From: Sulfolobus sp. A20
GTDB lineage: Archaea > Thermoproteota > Thermoprotei_A > Sulfolobales > Sulfolobaceae
Length of the DNA stretch: 64,000 nucleotides
Assembly: GCF_001719125.1 (NCBI RefSeq)
Contig: NZ_CP017006.1
Location: forward strand, 186,001 to 250,000
Reading direction: 5' to 3'
Shown here: positions 8,694 through 41,829 of the stretch, one piece after another
Layout: each line of letters opens with the position of its first letter
How positions within the stretch are numbered: position 1 is the stretch's first letter
Made by a program: the position numbers and the translations under genes
Notes under the pieces: model-generated
What the model saw: only the letters and a program-made list of their open reading frames with translations
Told to the model about the DNA's origin: nothing
The model's database searches: none

Positions 8694-9611
8694 TTACAAG
8701 TATCTTCTTAACACTGACATAGGATTAGTTATGTTAGCAGTAAGTAAGGTTTCCTCTGGACTATGACCAAATGCAAACGCTAATAATTGCGAGAAGTAGG
8801 CTAACGGCATCTCTAAGTCTTTGCCATACTTCTGGGTTATCTTGTTCATGTTAGTCTCTATTGCAACATGTCCTAATGGACAATCAGTAACTAATATTTC
8901 AGCACCATTCCTTTTAGCTTCCTTTAATATTCTAGCCTCTAAGTGTATTGATACCTCATTATCAGAGTAGACGTGAGGTCCACCACAGCACATCGTTTTC
9001 GCCTCAAACGGAACTACTTCAGCGCCTATTGCTTTTAATATTTCGTCCATAAAGAATGGTCTCTCTGGATCATCCCTTAATTTCATGTATCCGGATAAGG
9101 TATACGATTTAGGTCTGACATATAGACAACCGTAATAAGGAGCAACCTTTAATCCAGTTAGAGGTCTCTTAACCTTAGCTTTGATCCCCTCAATTCCAAC
9201 AGTGTTATAAACATATTCCACTGCATGAACTAGCATTAACTTCAGATCATATCCTTTCGTACCCATCTTTTCTAAATACGTATTAGTCTTTTCTCTTAAT
9301 TTTGGGTACTTTGTTAGATAATATTGAGTTCTAGATAAGGAATAATGACAGCCGGGACATGCTGAAACTACAGCATCTGCATTCATTTCTCTAGCTAATG
9401 CTAAGTTTCTAGCTGGTAATAAGATTCCAGCCATAGTGTTTACATTTTTAACTTCTAAAGCACCACAGCAGTTATAATCCTCTATTCTTTCTATTGGGAC
9501 ACCTAAATCTTGGGCAATAAGCTTTAATGAAACATCATATGACTTCCCTAATCCATCTAGAGCACATCCTGGGTAAAATACTGCTTTACCATAAGGTGTA
9601 GGTAAGGTCAT
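8694..9611 (-). CDS. hdrB2: sHdr complex subunit HdrB2
   Basis: 305 residues, two CCG domains as in heterodisulfide reductase subunit B: C16, C48-C49-G50, C85xxC88 in the first and C162, C208-C209-G210, C244 in the second, whose final CxxC is CPLG. The first motif can hold the non-cubane [4Fe-4S] pair described for HdrB. It is the last gene of the sHdr operon, overlaps hdrC2 by ATGA and has a near-perfect Shine-Dalgarno (GGAGGTGATC) just upstream. In sulfur oxidisers the sHdr complex oxidises protein- or lipoate-bound sulfur in the cytoplasm; role assigned from the locus. Confidence 0.9.
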
Positions 9612-18565: not shown

Positions 18566-19822
18566 ATGAGTTTAACAAAAGATCCTATTGAGGAACTCTT
18601 AAAACCTGAAAATTTAAGTAGGCTTAGTAAATTATTGGACGCATTACCAGTAATAGAAAAAGTTACTGATAAATTTGTGGAAATGGATAGAAAAGGACAA
18701 GTCGATATGATGATGTCCTTATTTGATCAAACTATTTCAATAATAGATGCTGTCCAGAAGGCTGACCTAATAAATGCAATAATATCGTTCGGAATGGACC
18801 AACTACCAAAAATACAAGCAATATGGCCAATAGTAGAAAAACTAACAAGCGAGAAGTCTATGGAATTGCTCTCACAATTTGACATTGATTCTATGTTAAT
18901 GACACTAGAAAAAACCATGCCAGTAATGAAAAAGTTAACGAGTGAAAAAGCCTTAAAGATTTTAGATCAATTGGATATTGACTCACTTATTGATAGTACT
19001 TCTAGGTTAGTACCAGTTCTTTCGAAGTTAGCTAATGAAAAAACTGTGAAGGCTATAGAAAGCCTAGACATTGACTCTTTAATTGAATTATTATCGAAAA
19101 TGGGCCCAAGTCTAAATAAAATAGCAAATATGATGAACGACATGTATAGTAAAGGGCAAATTGACATGCTAATGGGTCTCATGGAACAAGGCATTTCACT
19201 TTTAGATGCTGTCCAGAAGGCTGACCTAATAAATGCAATAATATCGTTCGGAATGGACCAACTACCAAAAATACAAGCAATATGGCCAATAGTAGAAAAA
19301 CTAACAAGCGAGAGAACTCTGAACATCCTACAGAGTATGGATTGGGATGCAATGTTTAACGCAATTGAAGCGTTAACACCTATGATGAAACAGCTAACTA
19401 GTGATAAAGCAATTAAAATCATTCAACAGTTTGATATAGCTACGACGCTAAGTGCTGTTGAGGCAAGTATACCAATACTTAAGAAGTTAACAGATGAGAA
19501 AACTGTGAAGACGCTATCCCAACTAGACATAGATTCATTAATAACATTGATGAGTAAATTCGCTGAGTTACAGAAAACTGGAATGATGGATAGATTAATT
19601 AAATTACTAGATATATTTGCTGATCCACAGTTCATTAATGGTATGATACTAGTAACTGAAAAGTTCTCGCAAGCCTTTAAGGAATGGATTAATCAGATAC
19701 CAAATGTTAGACCAGTGGGAACTCTAAGCTTACTTAGAGCTGGAAGTGATAAAGATACTGGATACGCAATAGGATTAATGCTAGAGCTAGCTAAACAAGT
19801 AGGAAAGACCTTTAAATCTTGA
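18566..19822 (+). CDS. DUF1641-like helical repeat protein of the sulfur locus
   Basis: 418 residues of repeating amphipathic helices with phrases such as [30 protein letters not shown] and [20 protein letters not shown] about every 40-45 residues. DUF1641 proteins are repeatedly found beside sulfide:quinone oxidoreductase and Hdr-like genes; their role is unknown. Two blocks 153 codons apart (18744-18854 and 19203-19313) are identical over 111 nt, a recent in-frame duplication or gene conversion. No cysteines, no signal peptide. The 3' end overlaps the convergent HDAC-like gene by 36 nt. Possibly a scaffold that brings the soluble sHdr complex to the membrane (inference). Confidence 0.8.
18744..18854 (+). 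repeat. 111-nt exact repeat, copy 1
   Basis: Identical base for base to 19203-19313, including third codon positions; encodes [18 protein letters not shown] and onward. The two copies are 459 bp (153 codons) apart inside one gene. Confidence 0.97.
19203..19313 (+). repeat. 111-nt exact repeat, copy 2
   Basis: Second copy of the 18744-18854 block. Flanks on both sides diverge at once, while the surrounding protein repeats are only loosely similar, so this block was homogenised recently. Confidence 0.97.
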
Positions 19823-36223: not shown

Positions 36224-36613
36224 TGTTTTTAAAGAGTATAAAAAGACTTCCAATGTTGACTATTTTTTAATTTTAGGATTTAGTAAGTAAAATAGATTTA
36301 AAAAATGATTAAATTCATCAATGGGCTTTCGGACAAGAGTGAATTGAATTTTTCTATCTATTTTATAAAATATAAAAATGTAGATATTTAGATAAATATA
36401 TAAAATATTTTAATTATAAAGACTGAATTACTATAAACACATAATAATATCATGTAGTATCTTTTTACCATTATCTATGCAAATTTATTGACGGTCTCTA
36501 TTAAAAAGTTTTTAATTATATAGCAAAATATATAATGATAGATCAGCTATTTGTTCAAAAAAATCAACGATAAAAAAGAAACTATTAAATATCATAAAGA
36601 AGTATATATAAAT
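36224..36613. other. Long AT-rich intergenic region
   Basis: About 390 bp, over 75% A+T, with poly-T runs that may end the FAU-1 transcript (36263-36275). TTAAATATC near 36585 stands about 25 bp before the favoured ATG of the next gene. No RNA gene or repeat was recognised. Confidence 0.5.
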
Positions 36614-37192
36614 ATGAAATTAAACGGAATTGATATCTCATCGATCATCAGTTCCCAAACAGCCTACGTAGCTACAACATACGAGTTCATAGAAATCTTC
36701 GCTGAAGACTTCCCTACGTATATCTCTTTAGATGTAAATGGAAGAATTATTAGAAAACTAATTGTACTTTCTAGGCCTAGAATCAATTTCAGTTTCTATC
36801 CAAATTATAAGTATATTATAGAGAAGAGTAATTTTAATGATAACTATTCCTTACAATCACTTAAAGATGCCGAAAAGATATTAATATATATCAAGGCTAC
36901 GAGAAAAAGTATGGGAAACGAGAAAGTAATGCAACCAATTATTAACTTTTTAGGATTAAAGAATGATAAACCTTCTAAACTCCTAGTAGTGAACGATATT
37001 CCAATCGTTACAACAAATAGAAAAGAAGAATTGATTTCACAAACAATAGAATTTATAAAACAAGAATTAGGTCTTGACATTTCCACATTGCCTACTATTG
37101 TAAATGCATCAGATTATAGAGAAATTAGGAAGAGAGGAAAAGTGAAAATAGTTGACGTTGATTACTATCAAAACCCACTTATCCTTCCCTAA
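36614..37192 (+). CDS. Hypothetical protein next to the vWA/PP2A cluster
   Basis: 192 residues from ATG 36614; longer in-frame reading (from 36551) is less likely, because TTAAATATC precedes the chosen start at leaderless distance. NGIDISSIISSQTAYVATTYEFIEIFAEDFPTYISLDVNGRII suggests an N-terminal beta domain; later LVVNDIPIVTTNRKEELISQTIEFIKQELGLDISTLPTIV. No family recognised. The 3' end overlaps the vWA gene by 14 nt (convergent). Confidence 0.6.
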   Translation: MKLNGIDISSIISSQTAYVATTYEFIEIFAEDFPTYISLDVNGRIIRKLIVLSRPRINFSFYPNYKYIIEKSNFNDNYSLQSLKDAEKILIYIKATRKSMGNEKVMQPIINFLGLKNDKPSKLLVVNDIPIVTTNRKEELISQTIEFIKQELGLDISTLPTIVNASDYREIRKRGKVKIVDVDYYQNPLILP

Positions 37193-38333
37193 GCTTTCTT
37201 GTCACTTCACTAGTTACCTCTTTTGATAGTCTCTTAGTCTGTTCTATTGAGCCTAACCTTTTAGTTGTCTCTAAGTTCTCTGAGAGTCTTCTGGTAGTCT
37301 CTATGAAGTCAAGTCTCCTAGTTTGTTGAGCTATTTGGTTCATTTGTGTTAAAGTTCTAGTAGCTTCTACTAATTGTTCTGCTTGAACTTGCTTTGCGTA
37401 TTTGTCTAAGAGCTCATAGTATCTATACTCATTTAATAAATCCTCATCTAAAGAGGAAACAAACGTGTTTTGGTCAGTAGCTTTCCTAACTTGAACTACT
37501 TGCAATAGTGACTCTTGCTTACTTGTAACGGGATCTTCATAAGTTACTCTTACTGTTAGGAAGTTTCCCTCATAGTTTGCTGGCAATATGGTCTCCCCTA
37601 GAATCTTTACTACATTTTCTATTCCATTAATCTTAACCGGCAGACTAGCATAATTCAATAGTTTTACTGCCCCTTCAGAAGTTATGTCAACTGTAACATT
37701 TTTTGCCGCTATTTGGGTTACGGCTTTCTGGGGCAACTTTTGTGGGATCTCTGAGGGATCAGATACATGATACATTACTCCTCCCGTTTTATCGCTAATT
37801 TTTTGGAGTAGTTGTTCATTATAATCATCACCAACACCAAAGGAATGAATCTGAAGCCTATCATAATATTTCACTTTAAGATAGTTATCCAGGTTGGTTT
37901 CATCAGTCGGATTACCGTCCGTCAATAACAATATATAAGCAGGAATGTTATATTTCTTAGCAATATTGTTTGCACTGAGTAATGCTGTATAAAGAACGGT
38001 CTGACCTCCAGCGCTTATATTCTGTATCTCCTCAGTCATATCAGATGGATCAACAAATTCCTTAACTACATTAACTGTTGAGGAAAAAGTTATGAATGAA
38101 ACTTTATTCCCTTTAGGTATACGTTTAAATAGCTCAATTGCACCTTGTTTTGCTAATTCTATCTTATATCCAGCCATTGACCCACTAGTATCCAACACTA
38201 TAATGTAATGAAAGCCAGACGCTGACCCCAATTTTTCCGGAACTAATAAAACTTTAAAGACATACCTAACATCTGCATTATACGAATACTTGTGACTAGT
38301 ATTTACCCTTAATGAGAGAGTCATCTTACCCAC
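37179..38333 (-). CDS. von Willebrand factor A domain protein with Thr-rich C-terminal tail (ArnB/vWA type)
   Basis: 384 residues. The vWA domain has an intact MIDAS: VLDTSGSMAGYKIELAKQG (D-x-S-x-S) and ILLLTDGNPTDETN. A beta-sandwich follows, then a helical tail with six T-[R/K]-x-L units (TRTL, TRRL twice, TKRL twice, TRKL) in the last 65 residues. The tail looks like a multi-site phosphothreonine platform for the FHA protein encoded two genes upstream. Ends one base from the PP2A start, so the three minus genes form one operon. ArnB and ArnA form such a pair in S. acidocaldarius; which of the two vWA genes here is the orthologue is undecided. Confidence 0.85.
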   Translation of the reverse strand: MGKMTLSLRVNTSHKYSYNADVRYVFKVLLVPEKLGSASGFHYIIVLDTSGSMAGYKIELAKQGAIELFKRIPKGNKVSFITFSSTVNVVKEFVDPSDMTEEIQNISAGGQTVLYTALLSANNIAKKYNIPAYILLLTDGNPTDETNLDNYLKVKYYDRLQIHSFGVGDDYNEQLLQKISDKTGGVMYHVSDPSEIPQKLPQKAVTQIAAKNVTVDITSEGAVKLLNYASLPVKINGIENVVKILGETILPANYEGNFLTVRVTYEDPVTSKQESLLQVVQVRKATDQNTFVSSLDEDLLNEYRYYELLDKYAKQVQAEQLVEATRTLTQMNQIAQQTRRLDFIETTRRLSENLETTKRLGSIEQTKRLSKEVTSEVTRKLREG

Positions 38334-39146
38334 CTATAGATAAATCTTATCCATTTTTCCATCCTTTTTTAAAATTAAAACACCTGCTCTCATTTTATGA
38401 TACCTACTTGAAAAAACTGTTATCACTTTCCCATTCATATCTTCTCTAAATCCATCCGCTACTTCATGACCCCTAATTATCCCATTTAACGAGTTTTTCT
38501 TTAAGAAATCCTCTACTACTCTTTCTCCGAAATAATAAGTTCCCTCACCTCTTATGTTAGGCAAAAAATCTAAATCTCCTAATCCTTCTCTCGGGTCGTT
38601 CCAAAGTAGCTGGAATGCTATAGGATCGTTAGGTATCTCGTCTGGCCTAGGTAGCTTTTTTATGTCTTCTACTTTTTCAAGCCCCGAAGCTATTCCTCCG
38701 TGTACGCAAAAATAATTATTAACTACAACTGCGTAGGGCATATAAGAGAATAACTCTATAAACATATTGTAATTTTCTTCACCCAGCTTGTTACTAATCT
38801 CCTTCTTAAAGCCATAATATTCATTTGTTAATGGACTCTCATGATTTCCCCTTAGCACTATATATTTCTCCTTATTTTCAATCAATTTTTGTAATATAAG
38901 TTTCAAATTACCTAACTGATCCTCCCCTCTATCAACGTAATCCCCAAGAAAAACTACCTTGTCAACCTTATCTGCAATATCAGAAAAAACTTGGCTTGTG
39001 ACATCAATTGCGCCATGTGTATCCCCTACGAATGCTACATTACCATCTACTTCAATTGTTCCTAGAAAAGGGGATTCAAACGATTGAAATATTTCTAGAG
39101 CCTTATTTACAATGCTCTTGATTTCGTCTAGCTCAATCAAACTCAT
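38334..39146 (-). CDS. PP2A-type serine/threonine protein phosphatase
   Basis: 270 residues, complete metallophosphatase: VAFVGDTHGAID (GDxHG), VVFLGDYVDRGEDQ (GDxxDRG), IVLRGNHESPL (GNHE), CVHGGIASG and IIRGHEVADGF. This is the PPP family, with two metals in the active site. It should dephosphorylate the vWA/FHA partners, which are known to be PP2A-controlled in Sulfolobus motility regulation. It overlaps the FHA gene by 4 nt and sits directly before the vWA gene; all are on the minus strand. Confidence 0.93.
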   Translation of the reverse strand: MSLIELDEIKSIVNKALEIFQSFESPFLGTIEVDGNVAFVGDTHGAIDVTSQVFSDIADKVDKVVFLGDYVDRGEDQLGNLKLILQKLIENKEKYIVLRGNHESPLTNEYYGFKKEISNKLGEENYNMFIELFSYMPYAVVVNNYFCVHGGIASGLEKVEDIKKLPRPDEIPNDPIAFQLLWNDPREGLGDLDFLPNIRGEGTYYFGERVVEDFLKKNSLNGIIRGHEVADGFREDMNGKVITVFSSRYHKMRAGVLILKKDGKMDKIYL

Positions 39147-39775
39147 TCTCCCACAATTCTGACTACTGTATTGTTACCTAACTTTATTATTGAGTTAGAT
39201 TGAATCTTAACCTTACCCTTTATGGGTTGAAACATTTTACCATCATAAATATAGGTTCCATTCGTACTATTCAAATCCTCTATATACAACTCTCCATTTT
39301 CTAGGCTTAAAACTGCATGCTTTCTAGAAACTTCAGGGTCAGGGATAACTATTACATTTTCTGGACTTCTCCCTAATGAAATTGAGGGAAAGATATCAAA
39401 GTCTAAGGGTAATTTAGTCTTGTTGAATGCCGAATTTGGAGTATTTATGAACAACAAATAATATTTAGATGGTTGAGGGACTGCTACTTGAGGCTGCTGA
39501 ACAGATGGTTGAGTGGAAAGTTCTGGGGTAGGAGATTGGGCTGGAGCTTGCGGAGATGGAGAAGGTTGAGATTCGACTTGTAGCTGTTGAGAAATTTCAA
39601 CTTGGCTTTGTTGTGTTGTTGGTTGCTGAATAGATTCCGGTTGCTGAGAGGAAACTTGCGGTTGAGCTGGTTGTTGGGGAGCAACAGCCTCTTCAGGTTT
39701 CTTAGTACCGCATTTTATACAGAACAATGAATCATCAGCGTTTTCATACGCACAAACTGGACATTTCCATGTCAT
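39143..39775 (-). CDS. arnA: Zinc-ribbon FHA-domain protein (ArnA type)
   Basis: 210 residues from ATG 39775; an upstream in-frame ATG would run into the divergent gene and is rejected. Order: zinc ribbon (WKCPVCAYENADDSLFCIKCGT, C4-C7-C19-C22), a Gln/Pro-rich linker of about 75 residues (PQQPAQPQ...QPSPSPQAPAQSPTP), then an FHA domain at ~120-208: SLGRSPENVIVIPDPEVSRKHA and LNSTNGTYIYD with the pThr-binding Arg, Ser-His and Asn residues. This is the layout of S. acidocaldarius ArnA, a repressor of archaellum expression acting with ArnB and PP2A. It is divergent from the second vWA gene. Confidence 0.88.
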   Translation of the reverse strand: MTWKCPVCAYENADDSLFCIKCGTKKPEEAVAPQQPAQPQVSSQQPESIQQPTTQQSQVEISQQLQVESQPSPSPQAPAQSPTPELSTQPSVQQPQVAVPQPSKYYLLFINTPNSAFNKTKLPLDFDIFPSISLGRSPENVIVIPDPEVSRKHAVLSLENGELYIEDLNSTNGTYIYDGKMFQPIKGKVKIQSNSIIKLGNNTVVRIVGE

Positions 39776-39829
39776 GTTTGTATAAATCGAGTAATAGTAC
39801 TTAAAAATTTCTGTTATAATATTTTTGAC

Positions 39830-40900
39830 ATGACTGTAACACTTAACGTAAAGCAAACACATGATTACGCATATACTGACAGACCAACAGAAGTGGGCTT
39901 CGTAATTTATATAACGCCAGAGAAGACAGCAATCACGAGAAATACACACTACATCATTATGATAGATAACAGCCCTTCGATGCAAGGGGAAAAACTTAGT
40001 ACAGCGGTTGAATCAGCAAAAAAGCTTTTAAGTGATTTGCCCCCAGGTAATTTCGTAACTATAATAGCTTTCTCTAATCATCCCGAGATAAAATACCAAG
40101 GACCTACCGGAAGCGCAGTTAATTTTGATGTAGGTAAGGGTTACACAACCAGGTTACACGAGGCTATTTCATTCAGCTTAAATCTAGCTAAGCAGTCACA
40201 AGTCCCCACTAAAATAATAATGCTAACCGATGGTAAACCAACAGATAAGAGAAACGTTAAAGATTACGAAAAACTGGACATTCCCCAAAACGTCCAAATC
40301 ATTACAATAGGGATAGGTAAGGATTACAATGAAGAGATACTTAAGAAATTAGCTGATAAAAGTGCTGGAAACTTCTATCATATTCAGAATACTTCTGAGC
40401 TACCTAACGTATTTGAGAAAGAGAGATCTACTTCAGCTTATGCATATAATTTGCAATTCATAACGCCACAAGGATTTATACCTTATAATTATGATTTACC
40501 AATAAGACTACCGATAATAGATAAACTAACATCAATATATGGGAGCCTTGTGATCCCTCCAGGCAACACTGCTTTCACTGTTTTCTTTACAATAACTTAT
40601 ATTGATCCTGTAGATAATCAGCAAAAAAACGAAACTAAGAGCGTTGTTATTCAAAGAGGAAATACTCAAATTGTGGAAAGTCACATCAATAGGGACGTAT
40701 TATTGACGATTAGATATTATAGACTCTTGAGGGAATACACAGAGGCTTTAGTCTCTGGCAAGGACACTACTAGAATACTTAATCAACTGAGACAAATCGC
40801 TGAGGAGACGAGAAGGTCCGATCTGATTGAACAGACTGAAAAATTAGGAAGTGATAAAAAAGCTGATTTATCAGAAGTAACTAAAAAGATGAGGTCATGA
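39830..40900 (+). CDS. von Willebrand factor A domain protein (ArnB/vWA type), divergent copy
   Basis: 356 residues. MIDAS motif MIDNSPSMQGEKLSTAVESAKK (D-x-S-x-S) and KIIMLTDGKPTDKRN; beta-sandwich then a helical tail with TRIL, TRRS, TEKL, TKKM, a degenerate form of the T-R/K-x-L series of the 37179 paralogue. Starts ATG 55 bp from the ArnA-type gene in the opposite direction, so the two share a regulatory region. It overlaps trm10 by 4 nt. It is probably one of the partners of the FHA protein. Confidence 0.85.
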   Translation: MTVTLNVKQTHDYAYTDRPTEVGFVIYITPEKTAITRNTHYIIMIDNSPSMQGEKLSTAVESAKKLLSDLPPGNFVTIIAFSNHPEIKYQGPTGSAVNFDVGKGYTTRLHEAISFSLNLAKQSQVPTKIIMLTDGKPTDKRNVKDYEKLDIPQNVQIITIGIGKDYNEEILKKLADKSAGNFYHIQNTSELPNVFEKERSTSAYAYNLQFITPQGFIPYNYDLPIRLPIIDKLTSIYGSLVIPPGNTAFTVFFTITYIDPVDNQQKNETKSVVIQRGNTQIVESHINRDVLLTIRYYRLLREYTEALVSGKDTTRILNQLRQIAEETRRSDLIEQTEKLGSDKKADLSEVTKKMRS

Positions 40901-41829
40901 TACTAGGCAAGGCGTTTGGCAAATACTTAAGAGATGAGCTAGGTATTGACTCATTGAAAGTAACTAGGCTAAAGAAAGTTTTCAAGACGGGATATTTACA
41001 GTCGATTGCTATTAATATGCTGATATATAACTACGGTTTACTGAAAAAGGAGGAAAAAGGGTGGATAGTTTCTGAAGAGGAGAAAGTAAAGATACTCGCG
41101 GGAAATGGCGAGGCTAAGACAAATTATGTTACCAGTAAAGGCGGAGAGATAAAGATTAAGGAAGAAATAGTCCCATTAGAGCCTCAATTTATTATTGATC
41201 TGGGACTTTTTAAAGAACATACTGAGGAAGAAAAAATAAGCTTATTAGAGCAGATTAAACTAACTTTAGTAACGATTAGACATTACCTAAGTGATTTAAA
41301 TTTAAAGTTATTCAATAAACCTGAATTCTTCTCGTTAGAGGTTAAAAATAAGGTTTATACGATTAATCAAATCCCTAAGGAGAAAACTATTGTTCTAAAT
41401 CCATATGGAGATATAATCGCTAATGAGAGTATAATATTGAACAGTAAATTTTTCATAATAGGAGGTATAGTGGACAAGGGAAGAAGATATAAGAACGCTA
41501 CTACTCTCTTGGCAAAAAAATATGGTTACGACGATTTGCCTCAAGTAAAAATAACTTTAAGGGGATCAATCGTGGGAGTTCCGGATAGGATAAACAAGAT
41601 TGTTGAGATAGTTCTTAATACTATTACGGGATCATCATTAGAAGATGCTATAATATTATCACAATCAAACGCTGATAAACTAAATAGATTAGTTACAGAA
41701 ATAAATAAAATGAATGAATTGAATTTGGAGAAAGCTAGAGAGCTAGCTTCTTGGCTTAAAGTAGACCAAAGAATTCTTAACTTTGCTTTAAGAAAAAGCA
41801 AATTCAAAAATCAATCTATTTCTTCTTGA
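40897..41829 (+). CDS. trm10: tRNA position-9 methyltransferase Trm10 (SPOUT)
   Basis: 310 residues. The SPOUT core is clear: KTIVLNPYGDIIANESII, SKFFIIGGIVDKGRRYKNATTLLAKKYGYDDLPQVKITLRGSIVGVPDRINKIVEIVLNTI, which forms the knot and SAM site. The archaeal Trm10 of S. acidocaldarius makes m1A9 in tRNA, and this has the same size. The N-terminal ~80 residues include a KKVFKTGYLQSIAINMLIYNYG winged-like region that recognises tRNA. ATGA overlap with the vWA gene. Convergent 19-nt overlap with the next gene. Confidence 0.9.
   Translation: MILGKAFGKYLRDELGIDSLKVTRLKKVFKTGYLQSIAINMLIYNYGLLKKEEKGWIVSEEEKVKILAGNGEAKTNYVTSKGGEIKIKEEIVPLEPQFIIDLGLFKEHTEEEKISLLEQIKLTLVTIRHYLSDLNLKLFNKPEFFSLEVKNKVYTINQIPKEKTIVLNPYGDIIANESIILNSKFFIIGGIVDKGRRYKNATTLLAKKYGYDDLPQVKITLRGSIVGVPDRINKIVEIVLNTITGSSLEDAIILSQSNADKLNRLVTEINKMNELNLEKARELASWLKVDQRILNFALRKSKFKNQSISS

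Follow-up and report, generated by a model that had tools for sequence, protein, structure and literature searches.

Six T-[RK]-x-L units in the ArnB helical domain of Sulfolobus sp. A20, their Thr-only conservation, and similar C-terminal units in bacterial vWA proteins

The arn locus and the units of ArnB

The stretch of DNA analyzed here (the window, 64,000 nucleotides of the single-contig, 2.69 Mb genome of Sulfolobus sp. A20) contains, at positions 37179–40900, the genes of ArnB, a PP2A-type phosphatase, ArnA, and ArnE, and this locus is an orthologue of the well-studied ArnA–ArnB–PP2A switch of Sulfolobaceae. The C-terminal helical domain of ArnB carries six T-[RK]-x-L units, and Thr at these units is almost invariant among orthologues and is never replaced by Ser.

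The arnB gene (37179–38324, minus strand) encodes 381 amino acids (aa) from ATG, comprising a vWA domain, a split beta-sandwich, and a C-terminal helical domain (Pfam PF00092 and PF18677, ArnB_C); the protein can be aligned along its length to S. acidocaldarius ArnB, and PDB 8s05_A, ArnB of the ArnAB complex, is matched over residues 3–382 with E=1.4e-137. The listed open reading frame (ORF) begins at GTG 38333 (384 aa), but translation probably starts three codons downstream, at the ATG at 38324, since many orthologues begin with MTLS or MTIS. Counted from this ATG, the unit threonines (322, 335, 344, 354, 363, and 375) have exactly the S. acidocaldarius numbers. The helical domain with the units lies at 37185–37442 (minus strand; residues 298–383 of the 384-aa ORF; PF18677, 3.2e-26, 91.5 bits against a cut-off of 26.3).

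The PP2A-type Ser/Thr phosphatase, the presumed eraser, is encoded on the minus strand at 38334–39146; it has a metallophosphoesterase domain (PF00149, 3.3e-33), and its ORF reads GDTHG, GDYVDRG, and GNHE, which we take to be the motif set of PP2A-type phosphatases. The arnA gene, encoding the reader (39143–39775, minus strand; PDB 5a8i_A, E=5.2e-65; PF13240 and PF00498), comprises an N-terminal four-Cys zinc ribbon, a P/Q-rich linker, and a C-terminal FHA domain with the R, S, and N that bind phosphothreonine (pThr), present as GRS, SRKH, and NSTNG. By ORF coordinates, 54 base pairs (39776–39829) separate arnA from the divergent arnE (vWA2; 39830–40900, plus strand), whose product is nearer to PDB 5a8j_A (E=1.1e-93) than to 8s05_A (E=1.7e-55). 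PADLOC gives no match for these four proteins.

On the minus strand, with Thr numbers of the listed ORF followed by those of S. acidocaldarius, the units are TRTL at 37350–37361 (unit 1, T325/T322), TRRL at 37311–37322 (unit 2, T338/T335), TRRL at 37284–37295 (unit 3, T347/T344), TKRL at 37254–37265 (unit 4, T357/T354), TKRL at 37227–37238 (unit 5, T366/T363), and TRKL at 37191–37202 (unit 6, T378/T375). All six fall within the last 60 residues. In 200,000 shuffles of the last 70 residues six T[RK]xL were never reached (mean 0.23), and the runner-up among the 76 window ORFs of at least 100 aa has two in any 70 residues.

An original prediction, made from the window's sequence, placed six such units at the end of a minus-strand vWA protein, and all are found there; it also placed a PP2A gene between the vWA and FHA genes, which Pfam and solved structures now identify as those of ArnB and ArnA. 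Their spacing is 13, 9, 10, 9, and 12 residues rather than 6–20. The divergent paralogue was correctly described as degenerate: ArnE retains four unit threonines only (T314, T327, T336, and T351) and a single T[RK]xL, lacks units 4 and 5, and has neither LETTKRL nor EQTKRL, the extended second half that covers the T353/T354 and T363 region of ArnB.

The same prediction called the region a tail, which it is not: the units occupy a folded four-helix domain. In the AlphaFold2 model (381-aa numbering) helices span residues 294–314, 318–335, 338–357, and 360–380, with all six units in, or at the end of, a helix; the model was made from only six sequences and has a mean predicted local distance difference test score of 83, a predicted template modelling score of 0.52, and low values for the last residues. 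These four helices, together with a crystal structure ordered to S380 (PMC12852372), rule out a free, disordered phospho-tail.

Five of the six unit threonines (units 1, 2, 3, 5, and 6) coincide with published phosphosites. T344 is phosphorylated in vivo and in vitro, and T280, outside the helical domain, is likewise a reported site (PMC5300886). T353, T363, and T375 are fast sites, nearly fully phosphorylated by 5 minutes, while T322 and T335 are slow and become phosphorylated only after 15 (PMC12852372). At unit 4 the literature site T353 thus immediately precedes the unit threonine T354.

Conservation of the unit threonines

Scanning with PF18677 found 36 positive genomes among 197 of the order (31 in the family of the window and five in another family, f8) and 17 among 300 of the phylum, one of these below the family cut-off; the two samples overlap. 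From 57 fetched stretches, the ArnB_C proteins were sorted into 36 operon-type ArnBs (that of the window included), 23 ArnEs, and 17 others; L078 (a 72-aa fragment), L072 (the N-terminal part of a split gene), and L088 and L090 (weak) were excluded. A candidate in G377 was also dropped, as its match scores under the family cut-off and its sequence, which looks like a coiled coil, contains no units. An ArnA-like ORF accompanies 35 of the 36 ArnBs, L083 having PP2A only; in 20 of these 36 loci the PP2A gene separates arnA from arnB.

Conservation of the repeat number, proposed earlier as a check, is borne out: 27 of the 36 orthologues have six units, eight have five, and one has three. The unit columns hold Thr in 210 of 216 alignment cells (36 ArnBs by six units) and Ser in none; five of the six non-Thr cells are due to f8, in which unit 5 is present at a changed spacing but slips out of register in the alignment. 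On a tree made from ArnB residues 1–295 only, parsimony requires 0, 0, 0, 1, 1, and 0 changes at unit threonines 1–6, compared with 5.5 on average elsewhere in the tail; so few changes occur in 4 of 100,000 random six-position tail sets, and in 10 of 100,000 when the sets are made up of six threonines. In f8 (L083–L087), at approximately 30–36% identity, ArnB has five or six units (six in four of the five genomes) with the last spacing altered to 8, PP2A lies within 2 kb, and ArnA is divergent in four of the five. Spacing is also altered, while the units survive, in genus g6.

Outside the ArnB tail both kinds of unit are close to their shuffled frequency, with 33 T-units and 51 S-units (40 and 46, respectively, by shuffling). 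The tail itself also contains 25 S-units, against 16 expected. The latter mostly represent an SKEV stretch, which suggests that Ser is missing from the unit positions only, not from the whole tail. The retention of Thr and never Ser would be expected for an FHA reader, not for a Ser/Thr kinase site alone.

In the Thr pair at unit 4, Thr occupies position 353 in 26 of the 36 orthologues (nine parsimony changes) and position 354 in 35 (one change). We infer from this pattern that the key site of unit 4 would be T354 rather than T353; the published mutants alter both together (PMC12852372). The S. islandicus site T353 was considered as support for T354 and rejected, as residue 353 is the first Thr of the pair in Saccharolobus ArnBs (380–381 aa, MTLS start). 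Three of the five sites reported for S. islandicus ArnE (T314, T327, and T351) are unit threonines 1, 2, and 6 of the 356-aa Saccharolobus ArnEs, and two (S304 and Y303) fall outside the unit threonines, on the assumption that SiRe numbering follows that of the Saccharolobus orthologues.

Of the 36 genomes with ArnB, 20 have a match to archaellin (PF01917) and 16 have none, some genomes being incomplete; the unit threonines are conserved in these 16 as well. Unit number does not track archaella (mean 5.65 with archaellin, n=20; 5.75 without, n=16), and this idea was rejected. As 16 of 36 genomes lack an archaellin match, and as the ArnA–ArnB–ArnE module of S. islandicus represses DNA-damage genes (PMC10470591), the module is not about archaella only; arnAB is also reported in two non-archaellated species (PMC5300886).

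The locus resembles the archaellum regulatory network of S. acidocaldarius (ArnA–ArnB–PP2A–ArnC) in its orthologous proteins, their domain order, the unit Thr numbers, and the divergence of ArnA and ArnE; it differs from S. acidocaldarius-like loci (G042, G032) in that these have no PP2A gene within an 11-kb stretch, whereas here PP2A lies between arnA and arnB. S. islandicus has the same genes (SisArnA, ArnB, and ArnE; SiRe_1010, 1008, and 1011). Aconitase, amino-acid permease, and lipoate ligase genes are found near the block in the window (by Pfam) and in S. islandicus, where SiRe_1005, 1024, and 1033 flank SiRe_1008–1011 (PMC7744417); judged by this shared neighborhood, the window would most likely belong to Saccharolobus. 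What sets S. islandicus apart is the DNA-damage role reported there.

The genus g3 (Metallosphaera-type) loci L056, L058, L060, L063, L066, and L068 show no ArnE in the stretch beside ArnA, and these genomes have ArnB_C paralogues at separate sites, with two to four units each.

The ArnA–PP2A–ArnB/ArnE switch and alternative readings

Very probably, the four genes form a switch in which the FHA domain of ArnA docks on multiple unit pThr residues of ArnB and PP2A reverses the docking, the sites acting redundantly, by avidity, and not as a counter. The six T-[RK]-x-hydrophobic units line the helices of the C-terminal domain of ArnB. Their threonines would be phosphorylated by a Hanks-type kinase, a part played in S. 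acidocaldarius by ArnC/ArnD and for which this gene block contains no gene; phosphorylation would loosen the helix bundle and expose the pThr sites; the ArnA FHA domain would then dock, the complex would tighten and oligomerise, and PP2A would undo it. Several equivalent sites would make this an avidity-type, redundant switch. The element readable by FHA would be the unit Thr together with the hydrophobic residue at +3.

In S. acidocaldarius the kinase, the sites, ArnA binding, PP2A reversal, and loosening are established (PMC12852372, PMC6509490, PMC7472852, PMC5300886), and the mechanism presumably holds in the species studied here too. In S. acidocaldarius, ArnC and ArnD phosphorylate the C-terminus of ArnB, and they modify Ser as well as Thr of this protein (PMC5300886); once phosphorylated, the helix bundle becomes looser and ArnA binds through its FHA domain (PMC12852372); dephosphorylation by PP2A dissociates the ArnA–ArnB complex (PMC7472852). 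In S. islandicus, phosphorylation strengthens the binding of ArnA to both ArnB and ArnE (PMC10470591). The predicted multi-site switch therefore agrees with what is known of the orthologues and is mostly the published model, not a new hypothesis, since phosphorylation of multiple Thr, FHA binding, and erasure by PP2A had already been reported. Its graded character is upheld in part: phosphorylation is ordered, and T353A/T354A and T359A/T363A weaken ArnA binding at 5-minute phosphorylation, but at 60 minutes binding is back, and no single phosphosite is essential (PMC12852372).

Several observations weigh against the switch as formulated here. The unit-4 phosphate is placed on the first, non-conserved Thr of the pair (T353) by two studies in two species. 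Both pairwise T-to-A mutants testable in vivo kept ArnA binding, all three pairwise mutants swam like the complemented strain, and no ArnB phosphopeptide was seen to drop in vivo as ArnA binding is lost (PMC6509490). The unit Thr alone does not predict ArnA binding, because ArnE binds ArnA in S. islandicus and is reported not to in S. acidocaldarius (PMC12852372). S375 (window numbering) is invariant in 36 of 36 ArnBs, which equals the unit Thr, and all six g3 genomes lack the hydrophobic residue at +3 of unit 4, having Ser or Ala there.

Among the alternatives, the possibility that the motif is a kinase recognition motif (basic at +1/+2), with FHA reading other features, survives best, though we consider it doubtful. 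Arg at +2 of pThr is 4.6-fold enriched in the S. islandicus phosphoproteome (PMC7744417), as this reading would have it; yet ArnC and ArnD modify Ser of ArnB too (PMC5300886), there is no Ser at the unit positions, and the hydrophobic residue at +3 is largely retained. The two roles, kinase recognition and FHA reading, may also coexist. It is unlikely that T-[RK]-x-L is a mere helix-building repeat, with amphipathic helices, helix-capping Thr, and incidental phosphorylation: while the location of the units in predicted helices and in an ordered crystal structure (PMC12852372), and that of unit 1 (AT--L) within a helical stretch alignable with bacterial relatives, would suit it, Ser substitutes for the unit Thr in none of the 216 cells, the units outlast the spacing changes of f8 and g6, several sites are phosphorylated in vivo, and truncation after residue 316 abolishes ArnB phosphorylation and strongly reduces ArnA binding (PMC6509490). 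About equally unlikely is the counter of the original prediction, in which stepwise phosphorylation of one to six sites sets a graded output or threshold: the order of phosphorylation (T353/T363/T375 ahead of T322/T335) and the near-constant unit number (six in 27 of 36) would fit it, but fast and slow sites are not equivalent, eight of 36 orthologues have five units, and the sites are redundant, the mutant with T343/344/353/354/359/363/371/375 changed to Ala still binding ArnA (an off-target interaction according to the authors) and the pairwise mutants swimming (PMC6509490).

Returning to the docking switch, ArnAB is a rare worked-out case of an archaeal switch by Ser/Thr phosphorylation, and a fixed, Thr-only unit offers a specific target (the unit Thr, the +3 residue, and T354 versus T353), useful where pairwise mutants lacked a motility phenotype; that this unit is also kept in genomes lacking archaellin agrees with broader duties of the module. 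Unit conservation is not described in the literature searched, a weak negative, as subscription papers lay largely outside the search.

Bacterial vWA–FHA gene sets and neighboring regions

A scan with the Sulfolobaceae ArnB alignment yielded 16 loci: five from Sulfolobaceae, one from Thaumarchaeota, and ten bacterial. The sole bacterial locus aligned nearly end to end is L097 (Dehalococcoidia), where the ArnB-like vWA gene adjoins genes of a zinc-ribbon FHA protein, a kinase–PP2C fusion, a kinase, and PP2C. At E<=1e-18, 125 of 350 genomes of its phylum, Chloroflexota, contain a match to the L097 vWA protein. The best 30 loci (many closely related) all carry one or more T-x-[RK]-hydrophobic units within their last 60 residues; together they have 39, against 5.6 by shuffling. 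Among 20 fetched neighborhoods plus L097 and L108, seven (L150–L156) show the order PP2C, kinase, PP2C, vWA, FHA, and in these the vWA C-termini read NKTRKLTQRL. The L150 kinase has TPR repeats, as ArnC does (PMC5300886).

The vWA, FHA, and PP2C genes also stand together in plasmid records of Gloeothece, of Nostoc linckia, whose vWA C-terminus is ..GTRKTVKMGAKGKTVKMG, and of Trichormus, where the stretch shows no kinase. The same holds for plasmid records of Deinococcus radiodurans and Deinococcus sp. QL22, with one C-terminal unit each by pattern. In all, such sets of vWA, FHA, PP2C, and usually kinase genes, from Chloroflexota, Cyanobacteria, and Deinococcus, occur in L097, L148, L150–L156, L159–L163, and several of L166–L184; T-x-[RK]-hydrophobic or T-[RK]-x-hydrophobic units are present at the C-terminus of most of their vWA proteins. 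The FHA partner has a zinc ribbon by Pfam in L097, L148, L150, and L158, and by eye in L159 and L161–L163. Beyond the vWA domain, the bacterial vWA profile aligns with ArnB through the beta-sandwich to unit 1 (hhalign, 99.9%, 312 columns); PF18677 is not matched in the vWA proteins of L097, L148, L150, and L158 at E<=0.001.

Of 60 loci examined, 55 yielded 62 vWA ORFs of 330–700 aa (one archaeal, L096), many of them close relatives. The last 35 residues of the 36 ORFs with a stand-alone FHA neighbor contain 60 T-units and one S-unit (7.1 and 5.3 expected), and those of the 26 without contain 39 and none (4.7 and 4.4 expected); for 16 plus 16 non-redundant sequences the numbers are 23/1 and 18/0. 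The C-terminal unit is thus, as far as sequence tells, a property of the bacterial vWA family. That it goes together with an FHA neighbor is weakly supported: at least two units in the last 60 residues are found in 31/36 versus 18/26 (p=0.098; non-redundant, 12/16 versus 9/16, p=0.23), neither difference being significant; the stricter T[RK]xPhi pattern (Phi, hydrophobic; last 35 residues), chosen afterwards, gives 29/36 versus 8/26 (p=1e-4, uncorrected for relatedness), and 12/16 versus 7/16 without near-duplicates. There are negative cases: L109, despite its FHA neighbor, shows no unit within its last 60 residues, and both unit and FHA neighbor are missing from Picosynechococcus (L164), L096, and one L100 ORF.

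Compared with the Arn module, the bacterial operons have PP2C in place of PP2A and fewer units, approximately one to three at the very C-terminus (TRKLTQRL, KTIKF..KTVRL, RKTVKM..KTVKM), whereas in archaeal ArnB six are spread across a switchable helix bundle. The chances are about even that the T-[RK]-x-hydrophobic unit is a cross-domain docking code read by the FHA partner in kinase/phosphatase operons; in its wider form this putative code would be Thr followed by a basic residue (+1 or +2) and a hydrophobic one (+3). If the bacterial operons work alike, they would represent a little-studied signaling module that has a predicted partner and binding site and occurs in laboratory organisms, e.g., Deinococcus radiodurans. 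The Thr-only conserved unit and its candidate bacterial counterpart are useful additions to published work.

Genes of vWA, kinase, and PP2C proteins stand together in TerY-P triads, too. The nearest literature covers bacterial conflict systems in which vWA, kinase, and PP2C genes are linked (PMC7159879), vWA–MoxR conflict systems (PMC8195603), a kinase domain survey (PMC1262709), and an ArnB-like fold in a Catenulispora protein (PMC6509490). A bacterial vWA–FHA–kinase–PP2C operon with a C-terminal motif is not described in the literature searched, from which subscription papers were again largely absent, making this negative weak as well.

A second bacterial vWA type (L110–L138; neighborhoods L139–L147 and L149) has a conserved C-terminus like QKTIKFGxxKTVRLSD; by the criteria of this analysis, the ten fetched neighborhoods contain no stand-alone FHA gene, and L140 and L141 have a divergent FHA-kinase. 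The Thaumarchaeota vWA protein (L096, 2670–4019) has a C-terminal stretch resembling a zinc ribbon (by eye), lies near kinase- and PP2C-like ORFs, and shows no T-units in its last 60 residues.

Next to the arn genes, a 310-aa ORF (40897–41829) overlaps the arnE stop by four bases and may be co-transcribed with arnE, and a convergent ORF (36551–37192) shares 14 bases with the 3' end of arnB; neither has a Pfam match at E<=0.1. Elsewhere in the window, positions 8694–30000 contain CCG-domain, DsrE-like, lipoate ligase, radical-SAM, and GcvH-like genes (six ORFs by Pfam), which we take to resemble a heterodisulfide-reductase-like sulfur-oxidation cluster with a lipoate-binding protein; a 418-aa DUF1641 protein at 18566–19822 contains an exact internal repeat of 36 residues in two copies.

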